Shown piece after piece: positions 49,083 through 50,467 of a stretch of DNA of 50,467 nucleotides (position 1 is the first letter of the stretch; every line of letters starts with the position of its first letter). Position numbers and translations under genes: made by a program. The stretch lies in assembly GCA_018818165.1 (NCBI GenBank), contig JAHISP010000076.1:1-50467 (forward strand), given 5' to 3'. The notes beneath the pieces are model-generated. The model made no database searches. It was not told where the DNA came from and worked only from the letters and a program-made list of their open reading frames with translations. Source of the stretch: Bacteroidota bacterium (lineage in GTDB: Bacteria > Bacteroidota > Ignavibacteria > Ignavibacteriales > Melioribacteraceae).

Positions 49083-49140
49083 GATAGCCTCTATAACTTG
49101 ATTTATTAAAATCTAAAAATATATCTTTCTTTTCATTTTG

Positions 49141-49437
49141 CTCGAAATACTGTTTCGAGTGTTTTTACAATTTGCAAATTAGCGATTCAGCGAATCGCAC
49201 TACATTTTGCTCGAAATACTGTTTCGAGTGTTTTGCAATTTGCAAGTTAGCGATTCAGCGAATCGCACTACATTTTGCTCGAAATACTGTTTCGAGTGTT
49301 TTGCAATTTGCAAATTAGCGATTCAGCGAATCGCATTACATTTTGCTCGAAATGCTGCTTCGAGAGTTTTTGCAATTTGCAAGTTGCGATTCAGCGAATC
49401 GCACTACATTTTGCTCGAAATACTGTTTCGAGTGTTT
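49141..49437. repeat. REP array, left side, five units of about 68 bp
   Basis: Two alternating palindromes make each unit: CTCGAAATACTGTTTCGAG (copies at 49141, 49210, 49278, 49346 with changes, and 49414) and GCGATTCAGCGAATCGC (copies starting at 49182 and about every 68 bases), joined by TTTGCAAATTA and ACTACATTTTG. Spacings between the first palindrome are 69, 68, 68 and 68. All units face the same way. The stop codon of the transposase gene falls at the right end. Confidence 0.95.
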
Positions 49438-50187
49438 TTAAACTAAATATTTTGGATTGCAATAACTCCACTTCCAGTCTTCTTGTTTGATAACTAAACC
49501 AGCTTTAACTGGGTTTTTCAGAATATAATTTACAATTCTTCTAAGCTCAGCAATATTTCTTACTACATGATCGTAACTTTCGTGCTGCCAAAAGGTACCT
49601 TGTCGGCCTAATATTATATTTGATTCTAAAGCTGTATGTTTTTTTAATTCATGTAAAATTTTTGTTACTATGAAATTTGAATTGCTGTTTTGTGAGTTAT
49701 GCAATTCAGGGTCTTGTGATTCAGCGAATTGTATTGCATTGTAGCTCGAAACGCTGTTTCGAGTACTTTTAATTACATCATGGTCAATAATTGTAATCGG
49801 TGTAAAAACTAAATGTACATGATTTGGCATTATTGTGTATGCAATTAATTCATATTCACTTTTATCTCTGTAATGAATTGCTTCTTGTGTAATTTTTGCA
49901 ATATTTTCGTCCATTAACCATTTTGGACTACTTTTACAACTTTCCAACAAATTATCAAATATTGCAAAGTACTTTTTCTGATATTCATAATATTTTTCAG
50001 TTCTAAGTTTATTATTAATTATACTAGAAATGATTTGTAATTCTTTTTCTCTATCTAATTTTAATTTTTTCACTACATCAACTGGTAATGAACCAGCGAG
50101 TCTAAATGTTACAAAAAAAGTATATCCCATTGGTTGGTAATGGGGTAAATTTCTTTTGTAATATATTTCGCTATTTTTTTGTTTCAT
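49438..50187 (-). CDS. REP-associated tyrosine transposase (RAYT, Y1/HUH family)
   Basis: The protein has 249 residues. RAYT features: GYTFFVTFRLAGSLP near the start, the HUH motif PNHVHLVF (H123, H125), LHELKKHTA, GTFWQHESYDHVVRN (Tyr205 is the likely catalytic Tyr, by analogy), YILKNPVKAGLV and WKWSY near the end. The family cuts and rejoins REP hairpin DNA as single strands and is thought to spread REP sequences. It is flanked on both sides by REP arrays in direct orientation. A REP-like unit is also inside the gene (49716-49770), read in frame as about residues 141-158 (STRNSVSSYNAIQFAESQ), between the HUH motif and the next conserved helix. Whether the enzyme is active is unknown; all key motifs seen are intact. 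Confidence 0.93.
   Translation of the reverse strand: MKQKNSEIYYKRNLPHYQPMGYTFFVTFRLAGSLPVDVVKKLKLDREKELQIISSIINNKLRTEKYYEYQKKYFAIFDNLLESCKSSPKWLMDENIAKITQEAIHYRDKSEYELIAYTIMPNHVHLVFTPITIIDHDVIKSTRNSVSSYNAIQFAESQDPELHNSQNSNSNFIVTKILHELKKHTALESNIILGRQGTFWQHESYDHVVRNIAELRRIVNYILKNPVKAGLVIKQEDWKWSYCNPKYLV
49716..49770. repeat. REP unit inside the RAYT coding sequence
   Basis: GTGATTCAGCGAATTG followed by GCATTGTAG and CTCGAAACGCTGTTTCGAG reproduces the order and spacing of the array units (GCGATTCAGCGAATCGC, CTACATTTTG, CTCGAAATACTGTTTCGAG). The second palindrome keeps perfect 7-bp arms. The first has changed at its ends. Confidence 0.85.
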
Positions 50188-50242
50188 TTGTGTTCTTGTC
50201 TAATTTATAAAGATATAATATATAATTTCCTAATCAATTGTT

Positions 50243-50467
50243 AGCGATTCAGCGAATCGCACTACATTTGCTCGAAATGCTGTTTCGAGTATTTTTACAA
50301 TTTGCAAATTAGCGATTCAGCGAATCGCACTACATTTTGCTCGAAATACTGTTTCGAGTGTTTTTACAATTTGCAAATTAGCGATTCAGCGAATCGCACT
50401 ACATTTTGCTCGAAATACTGTTTCGAGTGTTTTGCAATTTGCAAGTTCGCGATTCAGCGAATCGCAC
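50243..50467. repeat. REP array, right side, continuing past the window edge
   Basis: GCGATTCAGCGAATCGC occurs at 50243, 50312, 50381 and 50449, alternating with CTCGAAA...TTTCGAG at 50271, 50340 and 50409. Same unit, order and orientation as the left array, period 68-69. It begins 55 bases upstream of the transposase start and is cut by the window end. Confidence 0.95.

Follow-up and report, generated by a model that had tools for sequence, protein, structure and literature searches.

A REPIN read in frame within its own RAYT gene in a Bacteroidota bacterium, and its relation to the REPs flanking that gene

Introduction

How does the gene for a REP-associated transposase (RAYT, or TnpA_REP) come to contain, in frame, a pair of the very repeats that flank it? 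The question is raised by the last gene of a complete 50,467-nt contig (C27) in a draft genome of 4.88 Mb; this contig, at its full length, is the window analysed here. An earlier note on the same DNA had described the pair as a self-insertion tolerated in frame. The case is not an isolated one: in-frame REPs are a recurrent and published property of one RAYT subclass. The in-gene REPIN (REP pair) is real, is well over chance and is known in outline from print. What can be added beyond print is an enrichment of tagged hairpins in the linker, the locus-specificity of the repeats, a preference for one reading frame, a loop change shared between internal and flanking REPs, and a genome (G187) in which the sole REPIN of the strict pattern lies inside the RAYT gene.

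Palindromic repeats read in frame within proteins are familiar from the Rickettsia palindromic elements (RPEs), which have many genes as hosts. We know of no link between RPEs and RAYTs, and the host in the window is the RAYT itself. RPEs are mentioned in PMC3733652, a paper that, in the portion available, describes GTAG-tagged REPs read in frame within the proteins of other genes, mostly repair and replication genes; the likeness to the window is thus the in-frame reading, and the difference is that here the host is the repeat's own presumed transposase. The closest precedent is that of Quentin et al. (2018; PMC6006769), in the available portion of which TnpA_REP subclass 2.4 alone is said to have in-frame REPs in its own gene; these generally lie in a peripheral variable loop between HuH and Y, and tolerance is the favoured explanation. 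Subclass 2.4 and the window are alike in their GTAG-tagged flanking REPs and in the in-frame REPs inside the RAYT, and we see no basic difference between them. That portion of PMC6006769 mentions neither a frame bias nor internal and flanking REPs that change together; such joint change is likewise without mention in the corresponding portion of PMC3116915, no matching passage was found in that of PMC8266576, and a literature search found no paper on the subject.

The RAYT gene and its protein

The gene occupies positions 49438..50187 on the minus strand as a single open frame of 249 aa. Its product has the HUH and single-Tyr motifs of a Y1 transposase fold, namely NHVH (residues 122-125; 49813-49824, minus strand), WQ and YILKNP, with the catalytic Tyr221 encoded at 49525-49527 (minus strand); N122, H123, H125, W200, Q201 and Y221 are invariant across 40 sequences. 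The protein scores 67.3 bits against the NCBIfam RAYT profile NF047646 (REP_Tyr_transpos; cut-off 80) and 20.1 bits against PF01797 (cut-off 23), under the cut-off in both cases, and the TnpA_REP structure 4er8 ranks first for it both in a profile search of solved structures and in a fold search. The E. coli protein of 4er8, which belongs to subclass 2.2 (PMC6006769, in the portion available), shares the HUH/Y1 fold, and the W, Q, H and R of its GTAG-contact set align with W200, Q201, H207 and R210 of the window protein, which has D206 in place of E100; unlike the window RAYT, 4er8 has no REP-coded loop. The gene is, moreover, flanked by GTAG-tagged REPs that have dispersed copies, the arrangement by which a RAYT is recognised.

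The motif table for subclass 2.4 gives NH[IFV]H, WQ and a Y motif YIxNNP (PMC6006769, in part). The window protein has NHVH and FWQ, its YILKNP is one residue from YIxNNP, and several close relatives have YVLNNP or YILNNP; the in-frame REPs between HuH and Y that mark the subclass are present in the window gene as well. Judged by its sequence, the gene is a RAYT that belongs to subclass 2.4 or stands near it. A second RAYT, elsewhere in this genome (C34, L033), has a 7-aa linker and no tagged hairpin within the gene; the tagged hairpins around it are of other sequence and all lie outside that gene.

The internal REPIN

The internal REPIN lies at 49714..49771, as delimited by the direct-repeat families D3 and D4, the genome pattern and the flank score, and both REP halves are present there in the order and spacing that had been claimed for them. 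Hairpin B (49741..49763, plus strand) has an intact GTAG tag (49741-49744) followed by a perfect 8-bp stem around the loop GCT, CTCGAAAC-GCT-GTTTCGAG (49745-49763); its core is matched exactly and it folds. Hairpin A (49716..49732, minus strand) is decayed at its ends, with neither tag nor outer G-C pairs, and matches at 81% in family D4, in agreement with the earlier description of one perfect hairpin and one that had drifted. Residues ~142-158, which follow the HUH motif and precede the next helix, are encoded by the REP proper; the span first given (141-158) was correct to within one residue. The segment is REP-derived and in frame. Against the flanks of the same gene the linker scores 40, whereas the best of 40 control windows (of equal length, overlapping, from the same gene) reaches 15. 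Homologues having the same residues without such REPs, which would have spoken for ancestral protein sequence, were not seen: the aligned homologues differ there, and many of their linkers are coded by REPs of their own.

An AlphaFold2 model built on 40 sequences has a mean pLDDT of 81.4, with values <50 at residues 139-142 and 144-169, between a strand (123-130) and a helix (173-193). The rest of the fold is predicted well. The low pLDDT fits a flexible REP-coded loop and is no proof of one. The earlier note had put forward that the transposase could be a target of its own activity, or be regulated by the REP hairpin in its mRNA. The mRNA of the REP stretch folds stably (z -2.62, with 1 of 200 shuffles equally stable), and any REP would show such stability, from which a putative mRNA switch is not distinguished.

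Flanking arrays and dispersed units

REP arrays of families D1-D4, with a period of about 68 nt, flank the gene on both sides, downstream at 49134..49437 and upstream at 50242..50467, the latter supported also by the own-genome search and reaching the end of the contig. Another contig (C78:1-479) opens with the same array as window positions 50242-50467, at 93-94% identity; with the window contig ending inside a REP array and C78 beginning with it, the contig end is probably an assembly break in the repeat.

In the own genome, the REPIN pattern has 12 matches, seven on the window contig (internal copy included), four on C78 and one on C22, and the reversed control pattern has none. A search with part of the array yields 30 matches: four on the window contig (one of them the internal copy), three on C78, and a further 23 spread over 16 other contigs. 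Whichever strand is read, none of these 23 dispersed places falls inside an open frame that reaches 120 codons; the longest has 116 (C19). The typical dispersed unit, to judge from most of those read, is TTGCGATTC[AG]GCGAATCGCACTACATTGTAGCTCGAATCGCTGATTCGAG; its centre CATTGTAG is common to the internal copy and the dispersed units, and the hairpin CTCGAAACGCTGTTTCGAG is common to the internal copy and the unit on C22. The GTAG tag of hairpin B is kept by the internal copy and by most dispersed units and is lost in the array units beside the gene, which keep the tag at hairpin A only. With these features of dispersed units, the internal copy was apparently not copied from the present array units. 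The claim that the internal unit copies a flanking one holds as regards the family, and fails if a simple copy of today's array is meant.

Linker REPs in related genes

A first draw gave a match at E <=0.001 in 36 of 58 genomes (own genome counted), and wider searches gave matches, at their respective thresholds, in 47 of 164 genomes of the order, 32 of 391 of the class and 19 of 395 of the phylum. A scan of named-genome contigs with a single protein query found no relative; with the alignment query A1, 80 of 173 loci were kept. From 148 deduplicated open frames, 129 passed E <=1e-50 and, after removal of three without usable motifs, 126 genes remained, among them L110 and L121, whose linkers are set too long because the WQ motif is missing.

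Among the nearest proteins, the inserts between NHVH and the helix YIVTKI vary in sequence and length, and several are built from the REPs flanking their own locus. Across the set, the linker outscores every in-gene control window against its own flanks in 35 of the 81 genes with linkers >=12 aa and in three of the 45 with shorter ones; the other 46 long linkers have no special flank match. Flanks were measured from the LPH motif in this test and from the open-frame start in the test with 81 flank sets described below, a choice on which some scores depend, such as that of L102 (37 and 11, respectively). The open frame L164:3001-3867 (same gene as L102) has an N-terminal extension in which a degraded piece of a RAYT, with a REP-like linker of its own, is repeated.

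Perfect hairpins with a GTRG tag, double-foot REPs being counted on both strands, reach 8.63 per kb in the linkers; the flanks have 0.97 per kb and the remainder of the genes 0.69, a density 12-fold below that of the linkers; 41 of 126 genes have such a hairpin in the linker. In L154, as in some other genes, the repeat makes up nearly the whole loop (VGRRDSSPY). The RAYT of L095 (G217:C67:6471-7241) has two tandem copies of its internal REP unit, with the frame kept.

Related genes without the insert, which the earlier note proposed to seek, do occur: many relatives are without it, and in one near relative, L009 (same gene as L042), no internal REP was seen. L131 (same protein as L073) had to be dropped as a close relative of this kind, its linker ending in a REP-like hairpin. 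A quick tree built from 112 core proteins (genes at E <=1e-60) requires 18-19 changes of the trait, at least eight of them forced by starred branches; with shuffled labels the number is about 36.

Reading frame of the linker REPs

The linker REPs prefer one frame beyond what the avoidance of stops demands. The forward tag is read GTA/G (slash, codon boundary) in 23 of 24 distinct units, where random stop-free frames would give 13.5 and 5 per million simulations reach 23; the reverse tag is read C/TAC in 26 of 36, where 10.2 are expected and none of 200,000 simulations reaches 26. These probabilities are too small, because some loci are related, and hence not independent, and because double-foot REPs are counted on both strands. 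When each 6-nt stem top is allowed a single unit, GTA/G is read in 12 of 13 (7.5 expected) and C/TAC in 13 of 18 (4.8 expected). The shared frame would reflect either an old insertion that changed in sequence and not in position, or a preference of the repeat ends for one site.

Internal and flanking REPs compared

Of the 35 linkers that match their flanks, 15 have the own flank as unique best among the 81 flank sets, as does none of the 46 others. Among the 36 loci that combine a linker >=12 aa with a tagged hairpin, the own flank wins over that of the nearest REP-bearing relative in 25, loses in 10 and ties in one (sign test p 0.017); where core identity to the nearest relative is >=0.8, the own flank wins in just two of six. 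The window gene (L001) and its sister L004, with cores 70% alike, have very different REPs, each matched to its own flanks.

A joint change is seen in one locus pair, L035 and L008 (same gene as L041), which have their downstream neighbour in common: a single difference in the loop, GCT versus TCC as read on one strand, separates the two loci in the upstream, the internal and the downstream REPs alike. At these loci the RAYT is also bracketed by direct repeats of 87-94 nt with 78-80% likeness (L035:1349-1435 and 2274-2360; L041:1418-1511 and 2478-2571). One copy forms the beginning of the gene downstream, whose 5' end looks as though it had been duplicated by the insertion.

In genus g81, the strict REPIN pattern has one match in G187, inside the RAYT gene, whereas G178 has an internal REPIN and one directly past the stop with an identical spacer, and G196 has no strict-pattern REPIN and a RAYT linker without a tagged hairpin. 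The G178 arrangement is consistent with the internal copy as donor, but the RAYT gene there has an in-frame stop and single hairpins of this type recur elsewhere in the three genomes. Because the evidence of the frame is joined by that of the shared change, we favour the reading that REPs are exchanged between gene and flank.

Origin of the internal REPIN

The account that we prefer, with a probability of roughly 0.6, is that of a tolerant loop in which the REPIN has been replaced by, or homogenised with, the flanking REPs. The shared frame and the same-site pair suggest an old resident REPIN so treated, and the earlier proposal of a self-insertion tolerated in frame accordingly stands as to its REP origin and frame, while the insertion need not be recent. 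A REP would have entered the loop between HUH and helix long ago, or repeatedly, because that loop tolerates it; internal and flanking copies would afterwards have been exchanged or homogenised, either through ordinary recombination or because the RAYT cuts and joins REP hairpins in single-stranded form, with only frame-keeping versions surviving. The window RAYT protein would probably work normally, and the internal copy would mainly be a member of the local REP population sheltered by coding. Weighing against this account are the ten loci matched better by the nearest relative's flank, the two wins in six at high core identity, the 46 long linkers that show no special flank match, the single pair behind the shared loop change, and the difference between the window's internal copy and its present array.

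A somewhat unlikely, if still credible, alternative dispenses with exchange altogether: REPs would land frequently near RAYT genes, where those landing in frame in the loop survive and the others destroy the gene. Such independent insertions would account for the number of trait changes on the tree, forced ones included, and for the quite different REPs of the sisters L001 and L004, and they sit well with the predicted flexibility of the loop and with the tolerance favoured by Quentin et al. (PMC6006769, in the portion available). They leave unexplained a frame shared beyond the demands of stop-avoidance and one loop difference recurring at three positions in a single locus pair.

It seems to us very unlikely that the internal REPIN is kept for a selected function, be it that of a master copy or that of a hairpin with a regulatory role at the DNA or mRNA level. 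The g81 arrangements in G187 and G178 and the mRNA z value would suit this, as would the silent codons of REP-bearing linkers, which are identical in 125 of 145 cases compared with 882 of 1169 in the rest of the genes (Fisher p 0.0034), a weak test on seven pairs hand-picked from 40 listed rows with each locus used once, L001/L004 being left out (4 of 9 in the linker, 87 of 144 in the rest) and L099/L101 not being among the rows. Against it, linker codons are conserved without REPs too (L188/L189, 21 of 21; L198/L194, 16 of 17), many relatives have no internal REPIN, the G178 RAYT gene carries an in-frame stop, and single hairpins of the same type occur elsewhere in all three g81 genomes. Chance resemblance or ordinary ancestral protein sequence is ruled out for practical purposes by the flank-score controls, the empty control pattern and relatives alike in arrangement with other sequences.

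Implications

The findings bear on the movement of REPs and on the means by which a RAYT and its repeats remain matched. On a speculative and decidedly doubtful reading, the internal REPIN would be a master copy under selection and sheltered by coding, which the enzyme uses to re-seed or overwrite the flanking REPs; if true, enzyme and cognate substrate would share the same codons and would stay matched as the repeat sequence drifts. A REP that codes for protein is not free to drift, so that REP replacement is naturally recorded at loci with both internal and flanking copies. If the two kinds of copy are confirmed to change together widely, this would show directly that RAYT loci are still exchanging REPs.
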